A DNA stretch of 35,615 bases from an uncultured Chlorobiota bacterium (lineage in GTDB: Bacteria; Bacteroidota; Ignavibacteria; UBA10030; UBA6906), in NCBI GenBank assembly GCA_900696645.1, contig CAADGV010000029.1, forward strand, positions 1 through 35,615, written 5' to 3'. Within the stretch, counting starts at the first letter, position 1; the number at the start of each line of letters is the position of its first letter. The position numbers and the translations under genes were made by a program. The notes under the pieces were generated by a model. It was not told the DNA's origin. It saw only the letters and a list, made by a program, of their open reading frames with translations, and ran no database searches. Below, piece by piece: positions 4,046 to 25,999 of the stretch.

Positions 4046-4052
4046 TTCCCGC

Positions 4053-7670: not shown

Positions 7671-7687
7671 AAATACTTTTTCTTTTT

Positions 7688-8853: not shown

Positions 8854-8871
8854 TGGCAGATTTATTCCCAT
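8854..8871 (-). promoter_or_regulatory. Sigma54-type (-24/-12) promoter for hypA-hox operon
   Basis: The minus strand reads TGGGAATAAATCTGCC: GG, ten nucleotides, then GC, the spacing required by RpoN. The block AAATCTGC is identical in the promoters of merR (23927) and osmC (25870). The predicted start is near 8844, leaving a leader of about 80 nt before the hypA ATG. The -24 element here fits the consensus TGGCAC less well than the other two. A CCATAATTGG inverted repeat (8868-8877) overlaps it. Confidence 0.6.
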
Positions 8872-8971
8872 AATTGGGACAGCAAAAAGGTGCTTGTGTC
8901 AGATTTGGGAGATGGAAGAAGTGTGCTGAGGTGGGATGAGTTGGGCGGACGATCACCTCACTGAGTTTAGG

Positions 8972-9142
8972 TTATGGGAAAACATAGCTGAGACCTATAT
9001 CCAGATTGAGCGGATCTTCTGCACTCCCCGGCGGGTTGTTGGATAGCCGAAAGTTAAGTCCAGCGCGAAGGAACGGATGAACACCCGGCCGACTTAGTGG
9101 AAGCCAACCATAGTTTATCGCCAAGTAGTTGTCTTTTAGAAA
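8972..9142 (-). pseudogene. 3' stub of an outer-membrane beta-barrel gene
   Basis: The last 56 codons before the stop at 8972 read like the end of a porin or OmpA-type barrel. They contain alternating strands such as DNYLAINYGWLPL, HPFLRAGLNFRLS and LNLDIGLSYVFP, the last close to the aromatic C-terminus typical of barrel proteins. The same frame upstream of about 9142 looks non-coding and is opposite the permease-like reading frame, so only the 3' end survives. It is probably a remnant left by the rearrangement that also truncated the permease next to it. Confidence 0.5.
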
Positions 9143-9198
9143 AGTGTTCAGTCGTTTGTTGCTGTGGTGCGGCCGGGCGACCGAAACAAGAATAACGC

Positions 9199-9423
9199 TT
9201 AACGGTCCGGTAAGAACTGAATCAAACCTGAGACAATCACCGGGATCACCAGGAAATTGCCGATGACCGCTGATCTCACAAAACGGACTTCGGAGACCGC
9301 CTGACGCAAGTGGACCATCGGCACCTGCACAAAGGTTGTGTACAACAGCAGGGCAAGGATCGGCCAAAGCAGTACCTCGAATATGTCTGACCAGCGCGGA
9401 AACAGAACGCCGACAATCAAAAG
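9199..9423 (-). pseudogene. ACR3/bile-acid-symporter-type permease remnant fused to the endonuclease frame
   Basis: The last 74 codons of the endonuclease reading frame encode hydrophobic sequence unlike a restriction enzyme: VGVLFPRWSDIFE, LLWPILALLLYTTFVQVP, HLRQAVSEVRFVRSAVIGNF and LVIPVIVSGLIQFLP. The order and motifs resemble the first three helices of ACR3/bile acid:sodium symporter-family (arsenite-type) permeases. The frame then stops, so the other 7-8 helices are missing. The junction appears to be near SRKKWML. The family call rests on recalled similarity and should be checked. Confidence 0.5.
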
Positions 9424-9972
9424 CATCCATTTCTTACGAGAGTATTTTGGATTGACAATAATCTTGTCCGAGTTGGCGATCTGAATCTGACCCCAGCCAA
9501 GTGCACCGATTGTGAGACATTCCCACGAAAGGAATTCAATCGGAACAAAATGAACCTTCTCGACTTTGACTCTTGTGCCTTTGACCGAGTAAGCAACGGT
9601 TAGAACAACGAAATAATTCTTGTTATCTTCATAGAAACGTGTGAGCCGCTCAACCGAAGTCAGGTTGGGCATATCGAAATGTGTGTCGAGCCGATGTGTC
9701 TTGACGTCCACAAAGTTGTAAAAGCCATCTTTGTCGGTAAAGGCAATATCTGCCATAGCTCTGCGAGCAAATTCGGCGGAATATGTACCGCAGAGGTCGC
9801 CGAGAATACCATCGAAGTGGTCAGCGAGAATTCCTTGAATAGCATCGCCCGCGGCACGAGTACTCGATATTGTAGCCTTGGACATAAAGTCCTTTTGAGA
9901 GTTAACGAAGCGAACAATATCGTTTTCGATTTTCTGGTATGCAGCAGTATAGAAGATTCGACTTTTCTTCAC
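9199..9972 (-). CDS. HincII-like type II restriction endonuclease with aberrant C-terminus
   Basis: The reading frame is 257 codons; residues 1 to about 183 look like the enzyme. The core ADIAFTDKDGFYNFVDVKTH has an Asp, then about 13 residues, then D-x-K. This is a PD-(D/E)xK nuclease centre arranged like HincII/EcoRV. The N-terminal ISSTRAAGDAIQG and the later IGALGWGQIQIA also suit this class. The GTG start at 9972 overlaps the methyltransferase stop (GTGA), so the pair is translationally coupled. From about residue 184 the frame continues into permease-like sequence, so the enzyme has lost or exchanged its C-terminus and may be inactive. Recognition specificity cannot be told. Confidence 0.65.
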   Translation of the reverse strand: MKKSRIFYTAAYQKIENDIVRFVNSQKDFMSKATISSTRAAGDAIQGILADHFDGILGDLCGTYSAEFARRAMADIAFTDKDGFYNFVDVKTHRLDTHFDMPNLTSVERLTRFYEDNKNYFVVLTVAYSVKGTRVKVEKVHFVPIEFLSWECLTIGALGWGQIQIANSDKIIVNPKYSRKKWMLLIVGVLFPRWSDIFEVLLWPILALLLYTTFVQVPMVHLRQAVSEVRFVRSAVIGNFLVIPVIVSGLIQFLPDR

Positions 9973-10980
9973 TTGGATTGTTCGCTCTGATCGAAAAGAG
10001 ATATAGTGTCGTTAGTGAGTAGGGATTTTGATCTGGAGTCAGGTTGGTCTTGAAGCGAATTTCTTTCCCGGAAAACTCCGCCTGAATACCCCTGAATGGA
10101 ATTGTTGTTCTCGGCAAGTTCAAGACGCTTGAGAGCTAGACAGGCATAGCTTTCATCAAGTTCGATTCCCAAGAAATGCCGTCCGAGTTTCCTTGCCACA
10201 ACAGCGGATGTGCCGGACCCTAAGAACGGGTCAAAAACGAAATCACCGGGGCGCGTGCTCGCGAGAATTATCTTTGCCAGAAGTTTCTCGGGCTTCTGTG
10301 TCGGATGATCCGTGTTTTCAGACATTGACCAAAACGGAACTGTCAGATCAGTCCAAATATTTGATGGATGCGTAAGACAATATCCGCCATGCTCTGTACG
10401 TTCCCAATCCTTTGGGTCACCGTTTTCGTTGGTGTACGGTGCGATCACCTTTCGCATGAGTTTCACAGCTTCGACATCAAAATGGTATTGGTCGGAGAGT
10501 GTACAGAACCAGATGTCTTCAGAGTTGTTTTTCCAGTTTGTCTTTGCACCGCGCCCCTTTTCCCTTTCCCAGGTGATGCGGCTGCGGATTTTGAAATACT
10601 TTTCGGCTACTTGTTGAATTGCCCCAGAAGATCGCCAGTCTCCACAGATATACACAGACGCTGTACTCTTCAAGCTTGGAACAAGCTTGCCGAGCCAAGA
10701 ATCAACCCAATGAGCGTACTCGGCGCTGCTCATTTCTCGGAACACATTGGAATTGAATGTCTTGCTCAGGTTGTAGGGGGGGGTCAACAAACAATAGATC
10801 TACAAAGTGAGCAGGCAGAAAGTCGAGAGCGGTAAACACGTCCTGATTGAGAACCACATCAATAAGATCAGAAATGGATGCTTCAGCAGACAACCGGAGA
10901 AGATGGGGTCTATACTTCTCCCTTTCTGTCTCAGAAAGAGTAATTGTTCTGTTACGGGGTGCTCGTTGCTTGGTATCCAT
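9969..10980 (-). pseudogene. Beta-class DNA methyltransferase (N6-A or N4-C), frameshifted in its DPPY motif
   Basis: Two frames join into one enzyme of about 336 aa. Codons from the ATG at 10980 run to FVDLLFVDPP, then switch frame at the C8 tract (10776-10783) to continue as YNLSKTFNSNVF down to the stop at 9969. With one C fewer the catalytic motif IV would read DPPYNL. Downstream come the TQKPEKLL segment and motif I, FDPFLGSGTSAVVARKLG, which gives the beta-class order (motif IV before motif I). The partner endonuclease gene follows with a GTGA overlap. The frameshift may be phase variation, decay or a homopolymer sequencing error. A TTG just upstream of the tract could start the second frame on its own, but without the N-terminus. 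Confidence 0.8.
10776..10783 (-). repeat. C8 homopolymer at the methyltransferase catalytic motif
   Basis: There are eight G on the plus strand, so eight C in the coding strand. Seven C would give Asp-Pro-Pro-Tyr in frame; eight send the ribosome into a frame that stops at 10702. It is the only long G/C run seen in this gene. Confidence 0.9.
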
Positions 10981-11111
10981 ACAAAATGAAAATACGAAAC
11001 TCTGAGTTGATTATCACTTTTAAGTTGCAATGGAGTGCAAACCCCGTAACTACAACACACCAGTGTCGTCTATCTTGCTTTTGTGTGTTTCTTGGTTCAA
11101 CAAACACGCCG

Positions 11112-11127
11112 CGCCAATCGGTTGGCG
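11112..11127. other. Hairpin in the gap between the DUF6132 gene and the R-M locus
   Basis: CGCCAA, a TCGG loop and TTGGCG form a perfect 6-bp stem. No T-run follows, so terminator function is doubtful. The 10981-11212 gap otherwise shows no gene. It is the boundary between the sulfur cluster and the AT-richer restriction-modification locus. Confidence 0.4.
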
Positions 11128-11212
11128 TCCATCCCCCCTGCGGCGTAGTCGCAAGTTAGCTTGAAACGTTGGGAAAGTCAAATGAAGTGGCGGAAGGTAA
11201 TCGTGAGAAAAG

Positions 11213-11389
11213 CTAACTGGAAAGCAGCAAGCCGATCAGGACACCATAAAGTGTACTAATCCAAGGATTGGCGGTAATAGGGCAAACACCGGATCTGCAA
11301 CCAATAAACTTGTGGTAGGCATAGCCGCCGGCGCCGCCGAGGAGGATCGGCCACAGGTAGGCGCTTAGTTGAGACCAGAGAGATTCCAT
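11213..11389 (-). CDS. Small DUF6132-type membrane protein
   Basis: A 58-aa protein with two hydrophobic segments and the central sequence YHKFIGCRSGVCPITANPW. The two Cys in GCRSGVCPI and the following NPxxSxLYG are typical of small DUF6132 proteins seen beside rhodaneses. The ATG at 11389 lies within the end of the rhodanese gene (25-bp overlap). A longer frame upstream has no membrane-protein character and is rejected. It is the last gene of the sulfur cluster. The Cys pair could handle sulfane sulfur or metal, but function is unknown. Confidence 0.7.
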   Translation of the reverse strand: MESLWSQLSAYLWPILLGGAGGYAYHKFIGCRSGVCPITANPWISTLYGVLIGLLLSS

Positions 11390-11751
11390 TCCGCCATTCC
11401 TCCCTTCATGTTGGCCGCATTGTAACCGAGCTTCGTGAGTGTTGCCGCCGCCGATCCGCTGCGGCTTCCTGTTGCGCAGTAACAAACAATCTCACGGCTC
11501 TTGTACTTCTCCAGTTCTTTCTCCCTGCGGCGCAACTCATGCAGAGGAATATGAACAGACCCTTTGATGGAACTCCGGCTCCGCTCGTCCGTCGTGCGGA
11601 CGTCGAGCAGAACGATGGAGTTGCCTTTCAACTTCTCCGCAACTTCGGCGGGAGTGTATTTCTTCAGCGATCGCAGAAGCAGCATCCGCTTGATATACAG
11701 AAACAGCAGAAGCGCGGCAAGTCCGTAGAGAATAATTTGTGATGTTTCCAT
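11365..11751 (-). CDS. Membrane-anchored rhodanese-like protein
   Basis: A 128-aa protein. Residues 5-27 form one transmembrane helix (QIILYGLAALLLFLYIKRM), followed by a single rhodanese domain with LLDVRTTDE and the active-site loop CYCATGSRSG. Cys92 is the expected persulfide-carrying residue, so it should be catalytically competent. Rhodaneses move sulfane sulfur between thiosulfate, polysulfide and thiols. The ATG at 11751 is preferred over a GTG two codons upstream because GGGAG is correctly spaced from it. It lies between the FmdB gene (16-bp gap) and the DUF6132 gene (overlap), so the three are likely co-transcribed. Confidence 0.88.
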   Translation of the reverse strand: METSQIILYGLAALLLFLYIKRMLLLRSLKKYTPAEVAEKLKGNSIVLLDVRTTDERSRSSIKGSVHIPLHELRRREKELEKYKSREIVCYCATGSRSGSAAATLTKLGYNAANMKGGMAEWNLSGLN

Positions 11752-11767
11752 TGTCACTCCCGTCGAG

Positions 11768-12010
11768 TCAGTTTATGCCGCAGCTTCCGCCGCCGCAACA
11801 GCCGCCCGGTGCCTCGCACGAACCGACATCCGCGGAAGCGAAGTCGCCTGAACCGCCGCTTCCCGTCGCAACGTTCGGCGCGGAAAGTAGCCGGATGTGG
11901 CCGGTGGAGCCGCACGCAGGGCACACGATGTCTTCTTCAATCTCACGGACTTTGTGGAACACATCGTACGTGGTACTGCATTCTTTGCAGCGATAGTCAT
12001 AGATCGGCAT
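11768..12010 (-). CDS. FmdB-family zinc-ribbon protein
   Basis: An 80-aa protein starting MPIYDYRCKECSTTYDVF, the standard FmdB/putative regulatory zinc-ribbon start, with a second Cys pair in CPACGSTG. The C-terminus is Gly/Cys-rich (APGGCCGGGSCGIN), which adds possible metal or persulfide sites. The ATG at 12010 follows AAGGAGATGTTGTTT; the longer frame upstream is rejected. Family members are often annotated as transcriptional regulators from the fmd operon link, but their real role is not settled. Here it lies directly upstream of the rhodanese. Confidence 0.88.
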   Translation of the reverse strand: MPIYDYRCKECSTTYDVFHKVREIEEDIVCPACGSTGHIRLLSAPNVATGSGGSGDFASADVGSCEAPGGCCGGGSCGIN

Positions 12011-12079
12011 AAACAACATCTCCTTGGAAATGGACATAGTAAACCTTACCGAATTTGATGCAGGATTTCAAGGTAGGGG

Positions 12080-12694
12080 TCAGCGTTTCTGCCCGTCCAG
12101 CGGCATTTTCACGCTCACCGCGCCGCGGAGTTCGCCGGCCTTGTAGTCAACGGCCTTGTCGTTCGGGTAGCGTTGCTGTATTGAGCTGTAAATCAGGTCT
12201 TTCATCTTCTCACGGCTGCCGTGGCACGAGAGGCACATATCGCCGATGATAATCGGCCGCATATAGCGGAGCGCTCTGCCATCCTTCTCTGTCACAATCT
12301 GAAAGAATTCGGAAGTGTCGGAAAGCGCCTTGGCATTTTTCAGTTCGGCAAATCTTTTCAATTCTGCACTTTCAAACGCGTCAGGAATGTTCTTCGGGTT
12401 TCTCCACTTCATGCTCACACGCCGGATAGAAACTCCGAGTTGTTCCTGCAATCTCTCGCCGACAACCTGGGCACTGTCGGCGCAGACGTCGATTGCCCGG
12501 ACGGCACCGCCGGCCGCGAGTTGTTGAGAGAGGAGTGTGCGCATTGTTGTGAGCAGCTTCTTTGCCGCCTCGCGGCTGTGCTGAAGTGCAGATGCGGAAT
12601 CTATTGTACCAGGAATTGGTTGGGAGAATGATGATGAGGCAAGAAGCACGACGAGGCACACGCAAGTTTTCAGCAACGACCGCATGTTGCTCAT
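12080..12694 (-). CDS. Tll0287-like (DUF3365) exported haem protein
   Basis: A 204-aa protein with a signal peptide (residues 4-25, LLKTCVCLVVLLASSSFSQ), a helical N-terminal region and a single c-type haem motif, CLSCH (residues 154-158). The layout of IDVCADSAQ, VSMKWRNPKNIPDAFE, DGRALRYMRPI and CLSCHG matches the Tll0287/DUF3365 family, a PAS-like haem c domain thought to sense redox state or gas. It would be periplasmic. The start has a strong GGAGGGACAAC leader. It lies 40 bp downstream of the aminotransferase gene. Confidence 0.87.
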   Translation of the reverse strand: MSNMRSLLKTCVCLVVLLASSSFSQPIPGTIDSASALQHSREAAKKLLTTMRTLLSQQLAAGGAVRAIDVCADSAQVVGERLQEQLGVSIRRVSMKWRNPKNIPDAFESAELKRFAELKNAKALSDTSEFFQIVTEKDGRALRYMRPIIIGDMCLSCHGSREKMKDLIYSSIQQRYPNDKAVDYKAGELRGAVSVKMPLDGQKR

Positions 12695-12734
12695 GTTGTC
12701 CCTCCGTATGATTGGTTGTGGAATTTGGAATGCG

Positions 12735-14201
12735 CTATCGCGCAGATATATCGAGAAACGATTTCACAAATTGCAGGACGCGATACACATCGGCAAAGTT
12801 CGTGGCAAGCCCGAACGAGATCCTCACAGCCCCGGCTGTTTTTCCTTTCACTGCAACGATACATTGCTCAAAGGAATTCCGTTCTTCGTTGCTGAAACAC
12901 TCGCGCATATCATTTTGCGTCAAGCCGAAGGCTATCTCGCCCGCGCCCGGATTGCAGAAGCAGCCGGTTCGAAGCGAGATATTCAGATTGGCGGCCTGTT
13001 CTTCCACAGTATGGAAATTAAACACGTTGCCGTCCGGGTCGTGAAAATTCAGGGCGACTGTGCCGGCCCGCGCAGTTGTGTCGCGGGGCCCGTACACTTC
13101 AACCAACGGCGTTCCGTTGGAATGACGGAGCGAGAGAATTTTGTTCAGGAACCACCCCGTGAGCAAAACAACTCTGTCGTGAATCGTATCAATCCCGACT
13201 CCGGCAAGGAACTGAAGCCCGATCTCCACAGCGGGCAAGTTCAGATAGTTGATGGTCCCGTCCTCGAACGCCCTGTCGCCTTCGGCAAAATAATACTTAT
13301 CCGCCTGCACAGAAACAACCTCGATTGTGCCGCCTGAAAACCATGGGCGACGAAGTTTTTTCAGAGCGCCTTTTCGTGCAATCAGACAGCCCACACCGGT
13401 CGGGTAGCCGAACATCTTGTAAAACGAAAGGGGCACAAAATCCGGATGATACTTGCTCAAGTCCAATCTGTTGGTCGGTACAAACGCCGCGGCATCCAAC
13501 ACTACATCCCATCCCTTTGACTGCGCCCGTTCTATCCAGTCCAAAGAATGCTGAACGCCTGAAAAGTTGGATTGCGCCGGATACACAAACAAGTTGTTTC
13601 CCGCCCGGTTCGGTTTCTCCAACTGGTGCATGAGTGGTTCGCCATCAATGCGCAGATCGGGAGCAACGACGGGGATATATGTGACGGTTGCGCCTTTTGA
13701 GCGCGCAAACTCGCGTATGCCATTGACGGCATTGTGATTGTCGAACGTGAGCATGTACCGCGAATCGGGGCAGAAGGGGTACGCTTCCCCGACGAGTTTC
13801 AACGCACCGCTTGCATTCGGCGTGAAGATGGCAACATACTCGTCGGGCGATGCGTTGAAGTATTCGAGAACATACCTTCTCGCATGTTCATCCATTTCGG
13901 TCGAAGCAAGAGAGGAAGGATTGTGCGAGTGCGGATTTCCGTACACGTGATCTTTCAGCATCGCCAGATGTTGTGCGAGCTGGCAGTCGGCATACAATCC
14001 GCCGCCTGTATAATCCACGTAGACCTGACCCAGTTTGTCGAGTCGTGCAAACTCTGTTGCGCGTAACTCGTCAAGAATGCCCGTCTTGATGTAGGCGGGA
14101 TTCTCCGCAATGAACTCATCAAAGGCTTGATGCATGCCCTCAGAATCAGCCGGAGAACTCCCTCCCGCTTGTGTCAATCCATGAAGGTCGATGGTGTTCA
14201 T
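12735..14201 (-). CDS. Class V aminotransferase, molybdenum-cofactor-sulfurase-like
   Basis: A 488-aa PLP enzyme related to NifS cysteine desulfurases. The N-terminal region (VYVDYTGGGLY, HVYGNPHSHNPSS, AIFTPNASGALKLVGEA), Lys262 in SFYKMFGYPTG for PLP, and Cys414/Cys416 in SLRTGCFCNPGA closely follow the N-terminal domain of eukaryotic Moco sulfurases (ABA3/MOCOS). The C-terminal MOSC domain of those proteins is absent. It should release sulfur from cysteine as a persulfide, perhaps for the molybdenum cofactor of PsrA. This fits its cluster with MobA but is inferred. The ATG at 14201 follows GAGCAGGTG and lies 7 bp after the protease-like gene. Confidence 0.83.
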   Translation of the reverse strand: MNTIDLHGLTQAGGSSPADSEGMHQAFDEFIAENPAYIKTGILDELRATEFARLDKLGQVYVDYTGGGLYADCQLAQHLAMLKDHVYGNPHSHNPSSLASTEMDEHARRYVLEYFNASPDEYVAIFTPNASGALKLVGEAYPFCPDSRYMLTFDNHNAVNGIREFARSKGATVTYIPVVAPDLRIDGEPLMHQLEKPNRAGNNLFVYPAQSNFSGVQHSLDWIERAQSKGWDVVLDAAAFVPTNRLDLSKYHPDFVPLSFYKMFGYPTGVGCLIARKGALKKLRRPWFSGGTIEVVSVQADKYYFAEGDRAFEDGTINYLNLPAVEIGLQFLAGVGIDTIHDRVVLLTGWFLNKILSLRHSNGTPLVEVYGPRDTTARAGTVALNFHDPDGNVFNFHTVEEQAANLNISLRTGCFCNPGAGEIAFGLTQNDMRECFSNEERNSFEQCIVAVKGKTAGAVRISFGLATNFADVYRVLQFVKSFLDISAR

Positions 14202-14208
14202 CACCTGC

Positions 14209-14700
14209 TCAGGTGTGCAACGTTTCGTGCAGTGACGGCCAGGCACGCAGCACCACGTCGGCGCTTTGCAGGTAGGCGGGCATGGCAAGACACACTTCCT
14301 TGCTCAGAGAGAAACCGGGAGCGTAGTGATTCGGCTGCATACCGATGAAGTGCAGAAGCTCCGGCAGCATTCCCTTTTGAGACACTTCCTCAAACACTTC
14401 AAGGAGGTCATGCTGATGCGCGAGAAGCCGGAATCCGCCGAAGAGAGTTATGTCGTGTCCCGCCAGCTCGATAATCGTTCCCGGAGTCCGTCCCATATCG
14501 GCAGCGTCAAGAATCAGCACATGGCTGCTCTCTTCCAGAATGGTCCGGAAGTCGAAGTCTATACCCGCCCCGATGAACTCGATGTCGTCTCTCGTCGAAT
14601 AACGCTGCTTCAGCAAGCGAAGCGCGTGTTTTCCGAGACCGCGATCGCCTGCTATGATTTCTCCAATTCCGATAACAACTTTTCGATGCATGTGTTCCAT
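14209..14700 (-). CDS. Divergent hydrogenase-maturation-protease-like protein
   Basis: A 163-aa HybD/HyaD-fold protein: VVIGIGEIIAGDRGLGKHAL at the N-terminus, LILDAADMG (Asp65) and LAHQHDLLEVF (His95) align with the family. However, the nickel-binding Glu of HybD (Glu16) is replaced by Arg20, and the GxGN Asn by Glu14. No hydrogenase gene is adjacent; the neighbours are FadL and the Moco-sulfurase-like gene. It may process or chaperone another protein, or be a retired protease. The ATG at 14700 is preferred because GGAG lies about 7 nt upstream; a longer start at 14748 is possible. Confidence 0.78.
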   Translation of the reverse strand: MEHMHRKVVIGIGEIIAGDRGLGKHALRLLKQRYSTRDDIEFIGAGIDFDFRTILEESSHVLILDAADMGRTPGTIIELAGHDITLFGGFRLLAHQHDLLEVFEEVSQKGMLPELLHFIGMQPNHYAPGFSLSKEVCLAMPAYLQSADVVLRAWPSLHETLHT

Positions 14701-14872
14701 GTGAGATCTCCGTTCCGACATCGTGCTCGAGGGCGTTTCCGAGAACATATTCTAACCTCGGCAATAGCGTTCAACTCACATGCCAAAGGAAAAGGCTGAG
14801 AATAACTCAAATCCGCCCGTATTTGTACCCATTGCGGCATTGCAACAAGTCCGATTCTCAGAAATGAGATTC

Positions 14873-14916
14873 TACCAAAAAGCTCGCCCCGACCATGAAA
14901 AATGTGACGGGGCGAG
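14873..14916 (-). terminator. Intrinsic terminator after the FadL gene
   Basis: The minus strand has CTCGCCCCG, a 16-nt loop and CGGGGCGAG, followed by CTTTTTGG. It begins 17 nt after the FadL stop codon. It suggests that the genes downstream (protease-like, aminotransferase, haem protein and onward) form a separate transcription unit, with a promoter in the 14701-14872 gap. Confidence 0.75.
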
Positions 14917-14932
14917 AAAACGCGTCGCCAAG

Positions 14933-16435: not shown

Positions 16436-16542
16436 ATGTTTCCCTATGAGTGTTGTCTGATAATGCGCAGTGACTTGCAGAAAAACACTTCCTGCGCGTG
16501 AAGCTTCCAATCTGAAGTTCCTCGTCCCGCCATTCTCGCGAT

Positions 16543-17468: not shown

Positions 17469-17492
17469 ACCATGCTCCTGGATGTTAATGTA

Positions 17493-17530
17493 GTTGTGAG
17501 GGATTCTTATCAAGATGAATCTCTCACAAC
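17493..17530. promoter_or_regulatory. Large inverted repeat before the AhpD-like gene
   Basis: GTTGTGAG-G-GATTC, a 10-nt centre, and GAATC-T-CTCACAAC give a 14-position stem with one imperfect position. It lies 25 bp upstream of the AhpD-like ATG, in the 93-bp gap after the rhodanese gene. There is no T-run after it, so it may be an operator or an mRNA leader structure rather than a terminator. Confidence 0.6.
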
Positions 17531-17561
17531 TTACTGTTTCTTCGGGTAAATTTCATGAAGA

Positions 17562-18218
17562 TCAACATCCCTCTTTCTTTTTTTTCTTCGCTGCACCGGC
17601 AGGAGCCGCGGATGAGGCGGGCATGTCCAGTTTCGGCATTGCAAGCTGAGGCGTCGCCTTTGTGTCGCCCGTACCTGTTTGCGGCGAGCCGCCGAAGAAG
17701 ATGCTTATTGCCTTTCGTTTCTCAAACACAACCCGCTCTTCCGCTGATGCATTCTCTGCAAGAGAGGGAAAGAGAATTCGATCTTTCCATTCAGCCAGCC
17801 CATCCCGCACCATGTACACGGCCTTGTACTGGTTCGCTTTCAAGAGAAACCACGCCTGTGCCGAATGAATCCCCCCTTCAGAATAGAGAATGATCTTTTC
17901 ATTCCGCATCAGTCCCGCATCAGTCAGCGAGCCGACCGGGATGTTCTCTGCCGTAGGAATGTGATACTCGTTGAATTCCTTTTCGCTTCGCAAATCAATG
18001 AGTCGGTAATCAGCTTTCCCTTTGATAATCCAGTCAGCAAGCTCGTCAACAGAAACATGATCCGCTTCTCTCTCGACAAGAAGGGCAAGATCCTTTACGT
18101 TCATTGTTGCCGTGTTGCCTGTATACGGACTTCCGGCGAAGATAGCGAGAAATCCCAGGACACCCGCGACAATGGCAAGCTTCTGATTAAACGAGAGTTT
18201 TGAGAAGAGTGCTTTCAT
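17562..18218 (-). CDS. Membrane-anchored rhodanese-fold protein lacking the active-site cysteine
   Basis: A 218-aa protein: an N-terminal transmembrane helix (about residues 12-30), then a rhodanese fold with RLIDLRSEKEFNEYHIPTAENIP and the loop LYSEGGIHSAQAW. The catalytic Cys position is Ser113, so thiosulfate:cyanide sulfurtransfer by the usual persulfide route is not possible. The C-terminal 50 residues are low complexity (TPQLAMPKLDMPASSAAPAG) and end KKKKKEGC, leaving one Cys at the extreme end. It overlaps the YedE gene (ATGA). It may bind sulfur anions or signal rather than catalyse. Confidence 0.85.
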   Translation of the reverse strand: MKALFSKLSFNQKLAIVAGVLGFLAIFAGSPYTGNTATMNVKDLALLVEREADHVSVDELADWIIKGKADYRLIDLRSEKEFNEYHIPTAENIPVGSLTDAGLMRNEKIILYSEGGIHSAQAWFLLKANQYKAVYMVRDGLAEWKDRILFPSLAENASAEERVVFEKRKAISIFFGGSPQTGTGDTKATPQLAMPKLDMPASSAAPAGAAKKKKKEGC

Positions 18219-18811
18219 TGCGACGTTCCTTTGCTGAATTTCTTCTCAACCCATTCTGCTCCGGCAAATCCGCCTAAGGCCATCAACACAACAAGAAACA
18301 CAAGCAGGCCATACGACATACCGAACAACTCAGGCAGCGTCACACTTCCCATTGCTGTTGACGTGTAGAAATTTTCGAGAAGGGGGAACATCTCTCCGAA
18401 TATGAAAATTCCAACCACAATTCCGCCTAAGTATATCATCCCGTCGTACTTCCCGGTCGCTGCCGCGACGCAGGATGTTCCCGGACAATATCCGCCGATG
18501 ACGAACCCGACACCGAGAATAAGTCCGCCGACAATTTGGGGAACGAGATACGTCTGGCTCACGTACACAAGCGAGAGATCAACAATGCCGAACACCGAGA
18601 GCCAGAACAATCCGACCATTGCCGTGACGATGGCGGTGAACATGACTTTGAAGACCGTCATGTCTGTCAGATAGAACTGTGCGGCAAGTTTGCGGCCGCT
18701 GCCAAAGCCGGCACGTTCGAGGAAGAATCCGAACCCGATGCCGATGACGAATGCAACGATGAGGCTGATTTCATCGCCGAAGTATCCGAATTTGAAATAG
18801 GGAGCGTTCAT
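18215..18811 (-). CDS. YeeE/YedE-family sulfur transporter, second half-size protein
   Basis: A 198-aa polytopic membrane protein with about five segments. It has FFLERAGFGSGRKLAAQFYLTD near the start and the conserved Cys motif GGYCPGTSCVAAATGK in the middle. YeeE/YedE (TsuA-type) proteins bring thiosulfate or related sulfur compounds across the inner membrane by passing them along cysteines. Here the two halves are separate genes. The ATG at 18811 is favoured because AGGAGG lies 8 nt upstream and it overlaps the previous stop as ATGA; an ATG at 18817 is too close to the Shine-Dalgarno sequence. Confidence 0.88.
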   Translation of the reverse strand: MNAPYFKFGYFGDEISLIVAFVIGIGFGFFLERAGFGSGRKLAAQFYLTDMTVFKVMFTAIVTAMVGLFWLSVFGIVDLSLVYVSQTYLVPQIVGGLILGVGFVIGGYCPGTSCVAAATGKYDGMIYLGGIVVGIFIFGEMFPLLENFYTSTAMGSVTLPELFGMSYGLLVFLVVLMALGGFAGAEWVEKKFSKGTSQ

Positions 18812-19389
18812 GTCCATTGCCTCCTGAAGAAATATGCAACCGCGTACCCGCCTGCAAACACTGCAAGCATGAATGCCCAGCTTCCGACACCCAACAGCGC
18901 GCCGCCCGTGAGTGCTTGTCCGCTGGTGCAGCCGCGTGCAAGCTTTGCGCCGAAGCCCATGAGAATGCCGCCGACGAAGGCGAACATCATGCGACCGCGT
19001 ATTGAAATGCGCGGGCTTTTTTCCACTGTTCCTTTGATTCTGTGTGCAAGCGAGCCGGATATGAACCCGCCGACCAGCACGCCGATGACTTCAAACACCA
19101 ACCATTCCTTCAGTGGATGGTGTGTTCCGTCTCCGAGATACTCGGAAAAGAAAGCGTTGAACTTGGCATGCTCTGGTGCCACTGCATTCACGCCGACGGA
19201 AACCAACGACGTGAAGGCTCCGGATGCGCCGAGTCCGCGTCCCATGATGACGAACGCAGCCAGAAGCACGAGCCCCAATCCGACGCCGGCAAGATACGGG
19301 TTCCAGTAAGGCTGAACCTTCCGGTCAGCTTTCACAACCGGTTGGGCTGCTATATCTTCGGGTGATGCTGCTTTTGCTAATGTTGTCAT
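18808..19389 (-). CDS. YeeE/YedE-family sulfur transporter, first half-size protein
   Basis: A 193-aa protein with an N-terminal soluble stretch (about 30 residues) and four to five membrane segments. The conserved motif GFGAKLARGCTSGQALTGGALL holds the expected transport Cys. It pairs with the downstream YedE half by a 4-bp overlap, so the two probably form one transporter. The 189-bp gap before it (19390-19578) contains repeat E and could hold a promoter, but none was clear. Confidence 0.88.
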   Translation of the reverse strand: MTTLAKAASPEDIAAQPVVKADRKVQPYWNPYLAGVGLGLVLLAAFVIMGRGLGASGAFTSLVSVGVNAVAPEHAKFNAFFSEYLGDGTHHPLKEWLVFEVIGVLVGGFISGSLAHRIKGTVEKSPRISIRGRMMFAFVGGILMGFGAKLARGCTSGQALTGGALLGVGSWAFMLAVFAGGYAVAYFFRRQWT

Positions 19390-19461
19390 ACTGCTTGTTC
19401 TCCATTTGAAAGATACATTCCGTTAAAAGAATCGTTCGAAAAACACTACTGTGAAAAGAAA

Positions 19462-19560
19462 ACCACCAAGGCGCCAAGACATGAGGGTCCTGAGTGGCAC
19501 ATCCCCGCGAAATCACCTTCAACCTTTTCGTGTCTTCGCAACTTCGCGATGTTCTTTCAA
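19462..19560 (+). repeat. Repeat E: CCACCAAGG.. / TTCGTGTCTTCG.. pair
   Basis: ACCACCAAGGCGCCAAGAC (19462-19480) and TTTTCGTGTCTTCGCAACTT and onward (19525-19555) lie in the psrC-yedE gap. They are quasi-periodic like repeats A and D, with units near 8 nt, but the two arms are not complementary to each other over their length. Confidence 0.6.
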
Positions 19561-19578
19561 CCGGTTTCATCCGACTCC

Positions 19579-20523
19579 CTAAAACCCAGCAATCGTCCAG
19601 CGGCTGAACTGTCCCGCATCAACGATGACAAATCGCAAAATCAATCCCCCCACAATCACCATGATCGGCGCAACGGGAGTGTGCTGCACTTTATGGTTTA
19701 CCGCCAACAACTGGATGATAAGAGGAACGATAATTCCCATACCGATCACAAATACCCAGAATACCGCCGCGTACGGACCCGAGAGTATCAAATGCGCGGC
19801 ATTCTGATGCACTTGCGTTGAGCTGAGCAAGCCGATGATGAACTGGGCAAACAGAAAGAGTTCGAAGATCAGAAAGCCGTTGTCCGCTTTTGCAAGAAGC
19901 TCACGCTCATACTTGTCGTCGGTGATAAGATGGACGAATGCTGCCGCAGCAGAAAGTCCTGACGTGAGAAACAGAACCCAGAGTATCGAGCTGTTCCATA
20001 GTGGCCGTGCACCCAACGCGCTCAACAGCACGCCCGTGTACATGCCAAGTATCGCCCCCACGATCATGCTCAACACGCCGATGTTCTTGACAAGCTGAGG
20101 TCGCTGGTTTATGAACGCCGAGACCTTGTCGAATAACTTGATACGATTCTGAAACGCCGGGGGAACTCTTGTCAACGTACTCGCCAGCAGCGTGGGATAG
20201 ACAAGAATGAGAATCCACGAGCCCCACGACATCGGCGAGGCAACTTTGAACGTTGTGAAGAGCCGCCAGACGTACAGTTTGTGTTCGAGGTCGAGAAAGA
20301 GCGCGAACATACCTGCGCTGAGCAACACCAGACTGATATGCGGCAGCCAGAAGCAGGAGAAGTAACTGTGTTTGTATCTTCCCTTGAAAAGGAAGTAGCC
20401 GGAGATAATCATGATCCCGGCTACAAGTCCGCCAAGAAAGAGATAAACAGGAATCTCCCAGCCCCAAATATGCAGCGAGGGGTCAATTTGCGGGTTTGAA
20501 CGTGTAGTTGTCAGTTCGTGCAT
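19579..20523 (-). CDS. psrC: NrfD/PsrC-family membrane subunit of the polysulfide/thiosulfate reductase complex
   Basis: A 314-aa integral membrane protein with eight to nine segments. WGWEIPVYLFLGGLVAGIMI is the first NrfD/PsrC segment, and LDLEHKLYVWRLFTTFKVASPMSWGSW follows, with the conserved Trp-Gly-Ser loop. PsrC anchors the catalytic and iron-sulfur subunits and exchanges electrons with menaquinone. It carries no haem. It is third in the psrABC set, 108 bp after psrB, with repeat D in the gap. The exact substrate of the complex cannot be read from this subunit. Confidence 0.9.
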   Translation of the reverse strand: MHELTTTRSNPQIDPSLHIWGWEIPVYLFLGGLVAGIMIISGYFLFKGRYKHSYFSCFWLPHISLVLLSAGMFALFLDLEHKLYVWRLFTTFKVASPMSWGSWILILVYPTLLASTLTRVPPAFQNRIKLFDKVSAFINQRPQLVKNIGVLSMIVGAILGMYTGVLLSALGARPLWNSSILWVLFLTSGLSAAAAFVHLITDDKYERELLAKADNGFLIFELFLFAQFIIGLLSSTQVHQNAAHLILSGPYAAVFWVFVIGMGIIVPLIIQLLAVNHKVQHTPVAPIMVIVGGLILRFVIVDAGQFSRWTIAGF

Positions 20524-20591
20524 ACGTTACCTTTCTTATTCAACACAATGACGTAAAGCCCACAAAGAATCTCAAAGCGGCTTATCAAAAA

Positions 20592-20624
20592 GCCTTCGTG
20601 AACCTTTGTGCCTTCGTGTTGAAA
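20592..20624 (+). repeat. Repeat D, copy in the psrB-psrC gap
   Basis: The sequence CTTCGTGAACCTTTGTGCC followed by TTCGTGTTGAAA is the same as the two arms in the hoxE-hypB gap (7688-7766), but joined without a spacer. It ends 7 bp from the psrB stop. Confidence 0.82.
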
Positions 20625-20631
20625 TCTTTTC

Positions 20632-21171
20632 TCATCTCAAATAGAAAATTCTCGGCTGCGTCCCCACTTCAGGCATCAGCGAGTGATTTTTGCGCGATGC
20701 CAGCAGCCTGCTCACCTGACTGTTCGGATCATCGAGATCACCGAAATACATGCAGTGAGTGGGGCAGACGGAAACACATGCCGGGTCAAGTCCCTTTTCA
20801 ACGCGGTGAATACAGAACGTGCATTTGTCTGCATAGCCGTCGGGATGAATGAACCGTGCATCATACGGGCACGATGCAACGCACGCCTTGCAGCCTATGC
20901 ATTCGTTCTTCGTTACCAGCACAACCTTGCCTAACTCGTGAACATGACTTGCGCCGGTCGGGCAGCAGGAAACGCACGGCGGATTGTCACAATGATTGCA
21001 GCGCTCCGAGCGGATTTCAGTTGTCAATGTTGGGAACGCCCCTTTTGTTTCCTGCACAATCCAATCTTTGTTGTAGCCTTCGGGAACGTTGTTCTCCGTC
21101 TTGCACGCAACAACACAATCCATGCAGCCGACACATTTTTTTGTATCAATCACCATTCCTAATCGTGCCAC
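20632..21171 (-). CDS. psrB: Four-cluster ferredoxin subunit of the polysulfide/thiosulfate reductase complex
   Basis: A 179-aa protein with the DmsB/PsrB arrangement of four Cys groups: CVGCMDCVVACK, CNHCDNPPCVSCCP, CIGCKACVASCP and CTFC plus CVSVCPTHC. It should wire the molybdenum subunit to PsrC. The GTG at 21171 is taken as the start because it lies 2 bp after the psrA stop and follows GAGGTGG; an ATG five codons later (21156) is an alternative. The longer frame that overlaps psrA is rejected. Confidence 0.93.
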   Translation of the reverse strand: MARLGMVIDTKKCVGCMDCVVACKTENNVPEGYNKDWIVQETKGAFPTLTTEIRSERCNHCDNPPCVSCCPTGASHVHELGKVVLVTKNECIGCKACVASCPYDARFIHPDGYADKCTFCIHRVEKGLDPACVSVCPTHCMYFGDLDDPNSQVSRLLASRKNHSLMPEVGTQPRIFYLR

Positions 21172-21173
21172 GG

Positions 21174-23369
21174 CTATGCCACCTCGCTTTCCATGGTGGC
21201 AAAGTTCATGTTCGACGCCGTGCCGCCCATCAGCGGATCGGTGATGTAGCGTGTCAGAAGTTGCGCGTCGCTTGCACCTTTTCCGTAGGCAAACGTCAAG
21301 CCCTTTGCATTGTGTCCGAAGCCATGCACCATGTATGCGCAATCGGGGCGAATGCGTTCCGTTGCTTTGACTTTGATGCGGTTGCTCACAACACCGTCCT
21401 TATTCTTCAGCCGAACGTAATCACCGCTTTTCAGGCCGAAACGGGCTGCAATGTTCGTGTTGATCCAGACTTCATTTTCGTTCATCATGTCCATCAGTAC
21501 ACGATTCGACTGCGTGCGGCTGAACGAATGAACGGGAGCGCGGCCGTAGAGCAGACGAAGATAGCCCGGCGGGCCGGCAGCCGGACGATTGTATTTCGGT
21601 ACAGGATCGAATCCGGCCTGTTGAAGTTGGAGTGAATAGAATTCAATCTTGCCGGACGGCGTTGGAAATTCTGCCGGAACTCCTTCGTCAAAGTAGATCG
21701 GTTGTTTCGCTCCGCGGATGGTTCCCTTCTTCTTCAACTCACTATAACTTAATCCGGCAGCTTTCAGTCGATGCTCAAAGTACTCTTCAATGTCGTTCCA
21801 CGGATAGTAGTGCCCGAGATCCAGTTTCTCCGCCAACTTCTTTGCCATCCACCAATTCGGTTTCTGATCGTGCGGAGAGTCAACAACGGGCTGGCGCAGG
21901 GCTACAAACGGCTCGCGGAACCATTCGACATTCAAGTCGTCATGACGTTCGAGATACACTGATTCGGGCAGCACAACGTCGGCCCAACCGGCAATCTCAC
22001 TTGGAATCACATCAATTACGACAAGCAGGTCGAGATTCTGAATTGCTTTGATCGTCTCTTCCTCGTTCGGTAGAGCGTGCAAGAGATTCGTGGCATAGAC
22101 GAACCATCCCTTTACAGGATACGGCTTGCCGGTGATCGTCGCTTCGCGAATGCCGGTGGTGATCGTTTCGTGGGCAAACGGATACTTGTGGTCGGGGTTG
22201 TCAACTTTCCCTTTTGCAGATTTCGGATAGTCGGGATAGGGATAAGACGGAACATCCATGCTGACCGGCGTGTAGAATCCGCCTTTGCGTCCCCAACTTC
22301 CGAGCAACGCATTGAGCATAGCGACTGCACGACTCCTCTGTGCATCGTCGCCGTACCACGTTACGTGCCGCCCCGGATGAACAAGAGTGGCGGGCTTGAA
22401 TCGAGCCATCTCGCGGGCAGTCTCGCGAATCAATTCAGGCTCGATGCCTGTCTCGGGATATGCCCATTCAGGAGTGTATTGTTGGATTGATGCGGCGAAC
22501 TGTTCGAATCCGAAACCGTACTTTTGAACATATTCAAAATCGTACAGTTTTTCGTTGACGATGACATTCATCCATGCCAGCAGCAATGCGAGATCGGTTC
22601 CGGGTTTGATGGGGAGATAGTGTTTTGCTTTGCTTGCCGCGACTGAAAATCGCGGGTCAACCACGATAATACTCGCACCGTTCTCAATCGCTTCGGCAAA
22701 CTCCTGCACCTGCGTGTTGTGCATATTCTCACCCAAGTGACTGCCGATGAGCACTAGACACTTCGCATTCTTGATGTCCGTTCGCTCCGGCGAGCTGACA
22801 TCTTCGCCGAACGTCAGCCGGAATCCGACGTCACGCGGGCCGCGGCATTGCGCGAACGACGGAGCCGCAATGTTCGGCGTGCCGAATGCTTTCAGCGTGT
22901 GCTTGAAGAAATTCCCTCCGATGCCGTGACTGAATAGCGCAACCGCCTCAGGCCCGTAGTTTGCTTTGATCTTCTGCATCTTTTCGGCGATGTACGTGAA
23001 GGCTTCATCCCACGTCACCTCGACCCATTCTTCTTTCCCTCTAACGCTCTTGCGAATAAGAGGCGCTTTCAGCCGGTCGGGATCGTAATGCGCTCCAACT
23101 CCGCCTGTGCCTCGCGGACAGAGCCGTCCGTTGCTCAGCGGGTCATCCGGGTTTCCTTCAACCTTCCACAACTTGCCATCGTTTACATACGCAATCGCGC
23201 CGCATTTCCAGAAGCAGATGTCGCAGAATGTCGGTATTGTTTCAACGCCCGCAGACGGCTTCTTTCTGTTCAGAAGCTGAGTACCTTTCAGCACTGCGGA
23301 GCCTGCGGCGGCAACACCGATTGTTGCTCCGCTTATCTTCAAAAATCTTCGTCTTGATAGAGAGTTCAT
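21174..23369 (-). CDS. psrA: Molybdopterin oxidoreductase catalytic subunit, polysulfide/thiosulfate reductase type
   Basis: A 731-aa periplasmic enzyme of the DMSO-reductase superfamily. The Tat signal is SRRRFLKISGATIG (residues 5-18). The [4Fe-4S] ligands are C49, C52, C56 and C84 (CDICFWKCG then LCPRG), and Cys175 in SFAQCRGPRD is the likely Mo ligand, as in PsrA/PhsA. The C-terminal cofactor-binding part has the usual GRAPVHSFSRTQ and NRIKVKA segments. It probably reduces polysulfide, thiosulfate or a similar oxyanion, though arsenate or tetrathionate reductases cannot be ruled out. The ATG at 23369 begins the Tat signal. merR lies 28 bp upstream and psrB 2 bp downstream. Confidence 0.9.
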   Translation of the reverse strand: MNSLSRRRFLKISGATIGVAAAGSAVLKGTQLLNRKKPSAGVETIPTFCDICFWKCGAIAYVNDGKLWKVEGNPDDPLSNGRLCPRGTGGVGAHYDPDRLKAPLIRKSVRGKEEWVEVTWDEAFTYIAEKMQKIKANYGPEAVALFSHGIGGNFFKHTLKAFGTPNIAAPSFAQCRGPRDVGFRLTFGEDVSSPERTDIKNAKCLVLIGSHLGENMHNTQVQEFAEAIENGASIIVVDPRFSVAASKAKHYLPIKPGTDLALLLAWMNVIVNEKLYDFEYVQKYGFGFEQFAASIQQYTPEWAYPETGIEPELIRETAREMARFKPATLVHPGRHVTWYGDDAQRSRAVAMLNALLGSWGRKGGFYTPVSMDVPSYPYPDYPKSAKGKVDNPDHKYPFAHETITTGIREATITGKPYPVKGWFVYATNLLHALPNEEETIKAIQNLDLLVVIDVIPSEIAGWADVVLPESVYLERHDDLNVEWFREPFVALRQPVVDSPHDQKPNWWMAKKLAEKLDLGHYYPWNDIEEYFEHRLKAAGLSYSELKKKGTIRGAKQPIYFDEGVPAEFPTPSGKIEFYSLQLQQAGFDPVPKYNRPAAGPPGYLRLLYGRAPVHSFSRTQSNRVLMDMMNENEVWINTNIAARFGLKSGDYVRLKNKDGVVSNRIKVKATERIRPDCAYMVHGFGHNAKGLTFAYGKGASDAQLLTRYITDPLMGGTASNMNFATMESEVA

Positions 23370-23397
23370 TGTACTTGATGAGAGGTCGGTATTTCGT

Positions 23398-23889
23398 TCA
23401 CTCTGTTGTTGCAACCTCGCTGCCGAGTGTGTGCATTACAATTGCCTGCTTAATCGCTTGACAGCTCGCCACTTCGGTGTACACGGAACATTCCCTGCAA
23501 TCGGCACTCCTGCATTCCCATGATTTGCCTGAGACCATCCAACACGGCTTATCATGCTGATGAAATGCAGCGCACGACTCCCGCTCATCAGGGGAACAGT
23601 TGAGAATCTTCCAGCACGGAATCAGCGAAAGCAGCCGGCGAATTCCCGCAATACTCACCTTGTCATGATTGATCATTGTCCGGATGCAACGAATTCGTTC
23701 AACATCGTTTTGAGAAAAGCGGCGGTGCTTGGAATGCTTGCGGTGAGGAATAATCAATCCCTCCCGTTCATACATGCGGATTGTCGGAATGGAAACGCCG
23801 AGGATATCCGCTGCTTCACCGATTGTGTAGAGTGTTGACGTAACAAACGGCTTGGCCGGAGCCATATTGATTGCGAGATTGCCACTCAT
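23398..23889 (-). CDS. MerR-family regulator with C-terminal two-CW cysteine domain
   Basis: A 163-aa protein. Residues 20-90 form a MerR winged helix (LYTIGEAADILGVSIPTIRMYEREGLI). The C-terminal part has eight cysteines (C92, 98, 106, 116, 126, 131, 134, 143) in the pattern PCW-x5-C, C, PCW, C, C-x2-C-SVY. This matches the two-CW domain found in sensors and chemoreceptors of anaerobes. That domain probably binds a metal, an Fe-S cluster or sulfur species, so the protein is a likely redox or sulfide sensor. The ATG at 23889 follows GGGAGAATTTCA. It is the first gene of the psr operon and its promoter is sigma54-type. Confidence 0.86.
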   Translation of the reverse strand: MSGNLAINMAPAKPFVTSTLYTIGEAADILGVSIPTIRMYEREGLIIPHRKHSKHRRFSQNDVERIRCIRTMINHDKVSIAGIRRLLSLIPCWKILNCSPDERESCAAFHQHDKPCWMVSGKSWECRSADCRECSVYTEVASCQAIKQAIVMHTLGSEVATTE

Positions 23890-23926
23890 TGAAATTCTCC
23901 CTTCACAAATATCTGTCATCCATAAA

Positions 23927-23943
23927 TGCAGATTTTGTGCCAT
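23927..23943 (-). promoter_or_regulatory. Sigma54-type (-24/-12) promoter for merR-psrABC
   Basis: The minus strand reads TGGCACAAAATCTGCA: a full TGGCAC -24 element, then GG-N10-GC spacing. The predicted start is near 23916, about 27 nt before the merR ATG. It is nearly identical to the osmC promoter (25870). A CCAAAATTGG palindrome-like site (23944-23953) lies directly upstream. Confidence 0.75.
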
Positions 23944-24157
23944 CCAAAATTGGCGAAAGTATCAGATTTTGACACTATCGAACGGCGATGCTTCCCACGA
24001 AAAGGAAATCTGTGGTAGGGTTTCTCAATCTTGAACATGACCATGCTTGTCATATTTCATCATCGCAAAACAACGCCGGAACTGTGGAACCTTCGATATT
24101 GGAAGAACTATGCCTTTTCTGTACATTGACGCACATGAATTTGTCTCTATACAATAC

Positions 24158-25327
24158 ATGACCAGAAAAACAATCGCCGTCATTTTCGGCACCCGCCCCG
24201 ACACAATTAAGCTTGCCCCAGTAATGCATGCCCTGCAGCGGGAATCCGCCCGATTCCGGGTCGTGAAGATTGCCACGGCGCAGCACCGCGGAATGCTCGA
24301 TCAGGTACTCGACGTATTCAAGATCAAGCCCGACTACGATCTGAACATCATGCAGAGGAAGCAGGCACTTTCGGCGCTAACCGCGAAGACCCTACAAGCC
24401 CTCGGCAATGTATTGGATGAAGTGCAGCCGGACATGGTGCTTGTGCAAGGCGACACGACTACGACATTTGTTGGAAGTCTTGCCGCATTCTACAAGCAGA
24501 TTCCGATCGGGCATGTTGAAGCCGGACTTCGCACGAATGACAAGCTGCACCCGTTTCCCGAGGAGATGAACCGACGACTTACCTCTTCGCTGGCCGACTT
24601 GCACTTCGCTCCGACCGAAACAGCAAAGAAGGCTTTGATTCATGAAGGTATCAATCGCTCAAGCGTTTTCATTACAGGCAACACCGTGATTGATGCGCTG
24701 CGGCTATCAGTCCGCAAGAATTTCCGGTTCAGCCTGCCGGATTTGAACGATGTTGTGAAAGAATGGAAGAAGATTGTGCTGGTGACGATGCACAGGCGTG
24801 AAAACTGGGGTGCCCCGATGTTAGGAGCATGCAGGACAATCAGGAGGCTTGCGGAAGTTCACAACGATATCAGTTTCGTTTTCCCGGTTCACCTCAATCC
24901 CGCAGTACAGGAAGTCGTTGGGGCAACACTCAAAGGTCTGCAAAACGTCCATCTTGTCGAGCCGCTCAACTACCTCGATTTTGTGAATCTGATGGCGAAG
25001 TCGTATTTCATCATCACAGATTCAGGCGGCATTCAAGAGGAAGCCCCGGCACTCGGAAAACCTGTGCTTGTTTTGAGAACGGTAACTGAACGTCCCGAAG
25101 CCGTGACATTCGGGACAGTGAGGTTGGTTGGATTGGATGAAGAGAAGATCATTCGGGAAGGCACCCGCCTGCTCAACAACAAAGCCGCTTACCAAAAAAT
25201 GGCAACCGCTGTCAACCCGTACGGCGATGGAAAGGCCGCGCAGAGAACGATTGCCATTCTGAAGAATTATTTCGGATTCACGAAATCGGTTGTGCGAGAA
25301 TTCCGCCCGCCAACCGCACGCTCATAA
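24158..25327 (+). CDS. wecB: UDP-N-acetylglucosamine 2-epimerase (non-hydrolysing)
   Basis: A 389-aa cytoplasmic enzyme converting UDP-GlcNAc to UDP-ManNAc for surface polysaccharide. The N-terminus IAVIFGTRPDTIKLAPVMHAL carries the family start (usually GTRPE; here Asp). VQGDTTT, GHVEAGLRT, PEEMNRRLT, TMHRRENWG and SGGIQEEAP are all present. The start is uncertain. The ATG at 24158 matches the family N-terminus but has a weak Shine-Dalgarno sequence, while an upstream ATG at 24110 follows GGAAGAAC. No other polysaccharide genes are nearby, and the gene converges with osmC across 10 bp. Confidence 0.93.
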   Translation: MTRKTIAVIFGTRPDTIKLAPVMHALQRESARFRVVKIATAQHRGMLDQVLDVFKIKPDYDLNIMQRKQALSALTAKTLQALGNVLDEVQPDMVLVQGDTTTTFVGSLAAFYKQIPIGHVEAGLRTNDKLHPFPEEMNRRLTSSLADLHFAPTETAKKALIHEGINRSSVFITGNTVIDALRLSVRKNFRFSLPDLNDVVKEWKKIVLVTMHRRENWGAPMLGACRTIRRLAEVHNDISFVFPVHLNPAVQEVVGATLKGLQNVHLVEPLNYLDFVNLMAKSYFIITDSGGIQEEAPALGKPVLVLRTVTERPEAVTFGTVRLVGLDEEKIIREGTRLLNNKAAYQKMATAVNPYGDGKAAQRTIAILKNYFGFTKSVVREFRPPTARS

Positions 25328-25337
25328 CGTCATTGAG

Positions 25338-25799
25338 TCAGTTGGCTGCAACTTCAGCATGCAATGCAGTCGTCTTCGACGATTCGATCCTGTATGAATG
25401 TGTCAGTTTCACGGCCTGGCTGAGCATAGCCGAAACAGAGCAGTACTTTGTTGTCGAGAGTTCAATGGCACGCTCGACATCCGCCGGATTGATTCCGTGC
25501 CCGTAGAACACATACTCGAGGTGAATATCGGTAAACACCTGAGGATGTTCCTCCTGTGCATTACCCGTTACATGAACCTCAAATCCTTCTAACGGCACTC
25601 GCTTCTTCTTCAGAATAGGAATCACATCCATTGCCGTGCAGCCCCCGAGCGCGAACATCAGCAGTTCCTTCGGTGACGATGCTGCTTCGCTTCCGCCAAA
25701 TGTCGGGCCGCCATCCATCATCACCCAATGACCCGAATCCCCTTTTGCAGCAAGCGTTACTCCCTGAAGCTGTTTGACAACTGCTTTCTTTTTTGCCAT
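25338..25799 (-). CDS. OsmC-family peroxiredoxin-like protein
   Basis: A 153-aa OsmC/Ohr-fold thiol peroxidase candidate. The two conserved cysteines are Cys54 in LGGCTAMD and Cys120 in TTKYCSVSAML, spaced as in the OsmC branch. KELLMFALGGCTAMDVIPILKKKR is the family core. It would detoxify hydroperoxides in the cytoplasm, or handle persulfides, as proposed for some OsmC proteins. The leader contains AAAGGA about 11 nt before the ATG, and a strong sigma54-type promoter lies upstream. This places it in the same regulon as the hydrogenase and psr operons. Confidence 0.9.
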   Translation of the reverse strand: MAKKKAVVKQLQGVTLAAKGDSGHWVMMDGGPTFGGSEAASSPKELLMFALGGCTAMDVIPILKKKRVPLEGFEVHVTGNAQEEHPQVFTDIHLEYVFYGHGINPADVERAIELSTTKYCSVSAMLSQAVKLTHSYRIESSKTTALHAEVAAN

Positions 25800-25869
25800 T
25801 CAACTGCGTCCTTTCGTCAGTACCCTTGTTTCATGACCTTGATTGATTTTCGAATCTACCACCCAAAAA

Positions 25870-25885
25870 TGCAGATTTCGTGCCA
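25870..25885 (-). promoter_or_regulatory. Sigma54-type (-24/-12) promoter for osmC
   Basis: The minus strand reads TGGCACGAAATCTGCA, which differs from the RpoN consensus TGGCACG-N4-TTGCA at one core position. The predicted start is near 25859, giving a 60-nt leader. A related GCCGATTTTGGG site lies upstream (25906-25917). The rest of the 25800-26073 gap holds only the cydB terminator. Confidence 0.78.
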
Positions 25886-25964
25886 CGAGAGATTCAGGAA
25901 AATGTGCCGATTTTGGGCGATTTCCCTCTTTCTGTTCCAAGTTCTGAGAGGTCGATTTCGATTG

Positions 25965-25999
25965 TTGGGAAAACAAAAACCCCGCCGGGGAGCGGGGTT
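25965..25999 (-). terminator. Intrinsic terminator of the cydAB operon
   Basis: The minus strand has AACCCCGC, a 6-nt loop and GCGGGGTT, followed by TTTGTTTT. It lies about 75 bp after the cydB stop. The space between has no CydX-like small gene. Confidence 0.9.

Follow-up and report, generated by a model that had tools for sequence, protein, structure and literature searches.

Does a common class of promoter link sulfur reduction, thiol-peroxide defence and hydrogen metabolism in the uncultured Chlorobiota bacterium whose DNA is examined here? The window, a contig stretch of 35,615 nucleotides, carries a molybdopterin sulfur reductase operon headed by a merR-type regulator gene (merR-psr), an osmC-family gene and a NiFe hydrogenase cluster that includes hypA. 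The initial annotation had proposed three near-identical sigma54 (RpoN)-type promoters before merR-psr, osmC and hypA, and all three sequences are present on the minus strand where it placed them. Comparison with related genomes upholds the elements before merR-psr and osmC, which are exact matches to one sequence and are conserved, and leaves the hypA site at the level of chance. The reading preferred here, with a probability of about 0.6, is that RpoN-type promoters drive merR-psr and osmC, and probably also the hydrogenase maturation protease gene hycI, and that the MerR regulator probably represses its own operon.

Elements before merR-psr and osmC

The merR-psr and osmC sites both match TGGCACNAAATCTGCA exactly (Table 1). 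In the 4.2-Mb genome of the window (G000), TGGCACNNNNTCTGCA has two exact matches only, and these are the same two sites. When up to 3 mismatches to TGGCACNAAATCTGCA are allowed, there are 6 matches in the window against 1.15 expected. A GG at -25/-24 and a GC at -13/-12, ten bases apart, are present in both elements, and the distance from TGG to the likely start codon is 53 nt for merR (ATG at 23889) and 86 nt for osmC. The looser form TGGCAY-N5-YTG occurs just three times in the window, always on the minus strand and each time before a gene (osmC, merR and hycI). The block AAATCTGC, which the initial annotation took to be common to all its sites, fares less well. Taken by itself, this 8-mer does not reach significance (4 in the window, 1.9 expected), and a broad regulon sharing it was rejected, the long block being specific to merR and osmC.

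Relatives retrieved with the psrA protein are mostly Ignavibacteria. In 21 genomes of the family TGGCACRANATCTGYW has 13 matches, 12 of which precede merR or osmC; its reversed control has 0. The thirteenth match is at L228/L362 (G022:C15:9971-9986), for which no downstream gene start was identified. Upstream of merR, TGGCAY-N5-YTG is retained in nearly all relatives examined. The osmC site is retained in the genus only: it is identical in the sister species (G001) and reads TGGCACGCAATCTGCG in another member of the genus (G002). Around it a block of ~30 nt is identical between G000 and G001, with diverged flanks. The osmC gene lies downstream of cydAB, and the terminator-like hairpin that separates it from cydB argues for a promoter of its own.

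The likeness between the merR-psr and osmC sites runs beyond the promoter-like part, as TGGCACrAAATCTGCATTTwTGGrTG, with 23 of 26 bases identical. Such identity over one short block, upstream of genes 2 kb apart, is also what might be left by a recent duplication of upstream DNA without any shared control. This origin is very improbable, since the likeness stops outside the block, each copy is conserved separately in G001, and TGGCAY-N5-CTG is retained in G002.

Conservation was determined position by position in 46 non-redundant merR/psr sites from across the Ignavibacteria. G2, G3, A5, T13 and G14 are invariant, T1 is present in 98% and C4 in 93%, which gives TGGCA-N7-TG. On sequence, this is the GG-N10-G arrangement of -24/-12 promoters. 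A housekeeping promoter, in which TTATAA would be the -10 box, was considered for merR and rejected; in the window's family the core TTATAA has decayed and TGGCAC-N5-CTG persists.

RpoN and the base at -12

The consensus of sigma54 -24/-12 promoters is TGGCACN5-7TTGCT (PMC12316311). The window sites resemble it in having TGGCAC at -24, YTG at -12 and a spacing of 10 between GG and G. As in other sigma54 systems, rpoN and many AAA+ activators are encoded in the genome, a check that the initial annotation had itself suggested. The rpoN gene was found in 19 of the 21 genomes examined, including 16 of the 16 well-finished ones. The single RpoN has a canonical helix-turn-helix, an STISRV helix and the RpoN box ARRTVAKYR, so that the recognition motifs for both -24 and -12 are intact. 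Enhancer-binding proteins are represented by 23 PF00158 matches, ~18 of them strong.

The sites depart from the consensus in the last base of the -12 part. The GG-N10-GC pattern of the initial annotation can be written over all three of its sites in this genome, but the GC doublet is not conserved in relatives, and of the 46 merR/psr sites only 20% have the '-12 C'. On its own, this would count against RpoN. To weigh this departure, all matches to TGGCAY-N5-TTG were listed in G000 and in a second genome, G014, and those with retrieved surroundings were classified by gene context on the basis of mechanical gene calls. In G000, 26 of the 57 examined matches (46%) precede a gene on their own strand, compared with 8.6% of random positions drawn from the same stretches (5 expected). 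The corresponding figures for G014 are 24 of 46 and 9.3%. The upstream bias has a p of about 2e-13 in each genome, and about 2e-8 in each for the non-C sites alone. The initial annotation had named equal frequency inside genes as a refutation of its reading; for this wider form the placement upstream of genes goes against such a refutation.

Among the upstream sites, the base after TTG is A in 11, C in 10, G in 5 and T in 0 for G000, and A in 7, T in 7, C in 7 and G in 3 for G014. No shared -10 box is evident downstream of the TGGCAY-N5-TTG matches. Because sites without C are also enriched upstream of genes, they do not exclude RpoN, and the conclusion that loss of the '-12 C' speaks against it was dropped. 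From these counts, in which A is about as common as C, the -12 C seems to be optional in this lineage, unlike in the sigma54 consensus. If so, many promoters here would escape RpoN predictions that require GC.

A relaxed -12 position might also be the mark of a different alternative sigma factor, peculiar to the lineage, that reads TGGCA-N7-TG. This is improbable given that the geometry is exactly -24/-12, that the one RpoN present has intact DNA-contact motifs, and that canonical TTGCA versions are found in the same genomes. For example, in G000 a canonical TGGCAT-N5-TTGCA is before hemN, and other TTGCA sites are before genes for a cytochrome-type protein and an iron-sulfur membrane protein (names read from the proteins). 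Comparable sites are before hemN in G001, G002, G014, G017 and others.

Two further sites were seen in relatives. The dnaK gene of one (L210, G029:C8:456595) is preceded by TGGCACGAAGCTTGT / TGGCACGAAGCTTGTAAATTATTAATC, in agreement with a survey that reports chaperone genes under sigma54 control in Bacteroidota (PMC12316311). In G014, TGGCACAGACTTTGTCATTTATTAAAGTCTG, with a partial palindrome, is 33 nt before a response-regulator gene (L219, G014:C8:37996-38026).

A palindrome over the start region of merR

In many relatives outside the window's family the YTG of the merR element opens a palindrome of ~18-22 bp centred on TTATAA, as in TTGACATTTATAAATGTCAA, TTGGTATTTATAAATACCAA and GTTGATATTTATAAATATCAAC. 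The initial annotation had not noted it. Across the 46 sites, the position pairs 11-32, 15-28 and 17-26 are above all 500 shuffles, in tests that ignore the kinship of the sequences, and neighbouring centres are without pairing. The arms covary in relatives, with the combinations TTGACA/TGTCAA, TTGGTA/TACCAA and TTGATA/TATCAA. The dyad is specific to merR sites, with 0.54 paired against 0.32 elsewhere, and other TGGCAY-N5-TTG promoters lack it. Concerted changes of this kind in both arms would be hard to explain otherwise than by operator function. The window's family has it in a shorter, shifted or weak form (18 bp in L068), and in G000 all that is left is the inverted repeat ATCTG-N13-CAGAT, which overlaps the -12 and the predicted start region of the merR promoter.

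Most simply, the palindrome probably serves the neighbouring MerR regulator as its operator. The helix-turn-helix of this protein is closest to those of HspR and GlnR. In its C-terminal part (23401-23600) six cysteines are invariant in 24 of 24 homologues, together with CW motifs; a Pfam search of this part gave no match, and it is a candidate for a domain that senses sulfur or redox signals. Repressor-type MerR proteins have operators such as the HspR HAIR element, CTTGAGT-N7-ACTCAAG, and the GlnR/TnrA site, TGTNA-N7-TNACA. The merR-psr palindrome is like these in being short, symmetric and placed at the promoter of the operon that encodes the regulator, next to a gene for a protein with a similar helix-turn-helix. 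It is unlike them in its half-sites, YTGAT..ATCAR, in its position on an RpoN-type element, and in being associated with a regulator that has the cysteine-rich domain.

It is possible, however, to read the TGGCAY and YTG block as no promoter at all, but as a protein-binding site made up of the MerR operator and an extra upstream half-site. The near-exclusive presence of the block at merR and osmC, the AAAAT spacer, which is likewise conserved in the window's family, and the freedom of the '-12 C' would all fit. This alternative is unlikely, as palindrome-free TGGCAY-N5-TTG precedes many unrelated genes in two genomes. In addition, the psr loci L164 and L165, where no merR was found nearby, keep TGGCAY-N5-CTG with a poor palindrome. 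In many relatives the merR start codon is only 40-55 nt downstream of the element, leaving little space for a second promoter. Another psr locus without a linked merR, L159, has kept both a -24/-12-like element and a partial dyad.

Under the RpoN reading, RNA polymerase with RpoN would contact TGGCAY and, 11 bases further, YTG; after activation by an enhancer-binding protein, transcription would start ~12 nt downstream of YTG. At the merR promoter the cysteine-rich MerR probably binds the palindrome, which would cover about -16 to +6, a dyad that sets this promoter apart from known sigma54 promoters. MerR would then probably repress its own operon until its cysteines sense a sulfur or redox signal, and the operon would serve sulfur reduction and sulfur handling.

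Several observations weigh against this account. The '-12 C' is scarce at merR/psr sites (20%). No activator gene was found on the window's contig in a family search, or on the sister contig in a motif search. The total of TGGCAY-N5-TTG matches is 62 against 67 for the reversed control, so that the bias is in placement only. The palindrome is weak in the window's genus, with 6 of 11 pairs in G000, the osmC site has a mere remnant of it, and the kinship of the 46 sequences tempers the shuffle results. MerR autoregulation through the palindrome is likely for the order as a whole, with less certainty for the genus of the window.

A more specific proposal can be made tentatively. In Ignavibacteria, the -12 part recognized by RpoN may be TTG followed by A, C or G (T in some species). 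At merR-psr the position freed in this way may have been taken into the covarying palindrome, bound by the cysteine-rich MerR over the RpoN start site, to make a MerR-controlled RpoN promoter for sulfur respiration. If true, a MerR operator placed on an RpoN promoter would combine modes of control in an unusual way. Descriptions of RpoN control in Ignavibacteria are scarce; a literature search found no paper naming both, and none that describes how this operon is controlled.

Hydrogenase genes and gene context

The site before hypA, TGGGAATAAATCTGCC, differs from TGGCACNAAATCTGCA at 3 positions, and chance alone should give about one match of this quality per window. Its score of 10.2 of 18.2 is within the shuffled range (95th percentile 11.5), and it deviates at two -24 positions, which are G and A. 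The orthologous site in G001 is TGGGAATAAATCTGTC, which ends in TGTC and does not keep the GC; as the whole long stretch around it is conserved in G001, nothing singles out the site. Most relatives have no comparable site before hypA. The distance from its TGG to the hypA start is ~105 nt, with the true start near 8765. Membership of hypA in the promoter class was rejected on these grounds. A single RpoN regulon over all three annotated sites, for which the GG-N10-GC pattern in one genome speaks, is hardly credible, having been largely refuted by conservation; its sulfur reduction and OsmC parts remain and its hypA part does not.

The hypA leader (8740-8900) is conserved over ~140 nt between G000 and G001, which is longer than a promoter needs. 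It has no Rfam match, and no family was matched in an Rfam search of the window.

The link with hydrogenase instead involves hycI, before which the initial annotation had no site. The counterpart of the hycI site TGGCATGTGAGTTGAA in G001 is TGGCACATGAGTTGAA, although the remaining intergenic region no longer aligns. The GC doublet is absent (TTGA). This third member of the class, at 14785-14770, probably drives hycI. Taken with merR-psr and osmC, it gives a set of testable promoters linking sulfur reduction, OsmC and hydrogenase maturation.

Table 1. Promoter-like sites, dyad, terminator-like hairpin and genes of the window
Feature	Position	Strand	Basis
Putative -24/-12 (RpoN-type) promoter element TGGCACAAAATCTGCA before merR-psr	23927..23942	-	Exact match; conserved before merR across the order
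Putative -24/-12 promoter element TGGCACGAAATCTGCA before osmC	25870..25885	-	Exact match; conserved in the genus
-24/-12-like site TGGCATGTGAGTTGAA before hydrogenase maturation protease gene	14770..14785	-	Counterpart in sister species
TGGGAATAAATCTGCC before hypA, rejected as promoter of this class	8855..8870	-	Score; sister species; relatives
Weak inverted repeat ATCTG-N13-CAGAT, proposed operator of adjacent MerR regulator	23911..23933	-	Dyad in relatives
merR-type regulator, MerR helix-turn-helix and C-terminal domain with conserved Cys and CW motifs	23398..23889	-	Pfam MerR_1 E=7e-19
Molybdopterin sulfur reductase catalytic subunit, PhsA/PsrA-like	21174..23414	-	Pfam; best NCBIfam PhsA 525 bits, below cut-off 694
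Ferredoxin-type iron-sulfur subunit, PsrB-like	20632..21342	-	Profile matches
NrfD/PsrC-like membrane subunit	19579..20523	-	Profile match
Two YeeE/YedE-type sulfur transport proteins and rhodanese	17562..19389	-	Profile matches
hycI-type hydrogenase maturation protease, likely start near 14700	14209..14748	-	Pfam HycI E=3e-17
NiFe hydrogenase cluster including hypA, hypB	2490-8831
osmC-family gene	25338..25799	-	Pfam OsmC E=2e-20
Terminator-like hairpin between cydB and osmC	25977..26000	-	10-pair stem and T-rich tail

The psr genes are like those of Psr/Phs operons in encoding a molybdenum subunit, a ferredoxin subunit and an NrfD-type subunit. They are unlike them in being headed by merR and followed by the YeeE/YedE-type transport and rhodanese genes. 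Beyond the rhodanese gene of the cluster are genes for a FadL-like protein and the HycI-type protease, and a cysteine-desulfurase-like gene. The FadL-like gene of the G002 psr cluster is preceded by TGGCACCAAAGTTGACATTTATTAGCTACAG (L207, L366; G002:C228:16577-16607), a site that carries a partial palindrome.

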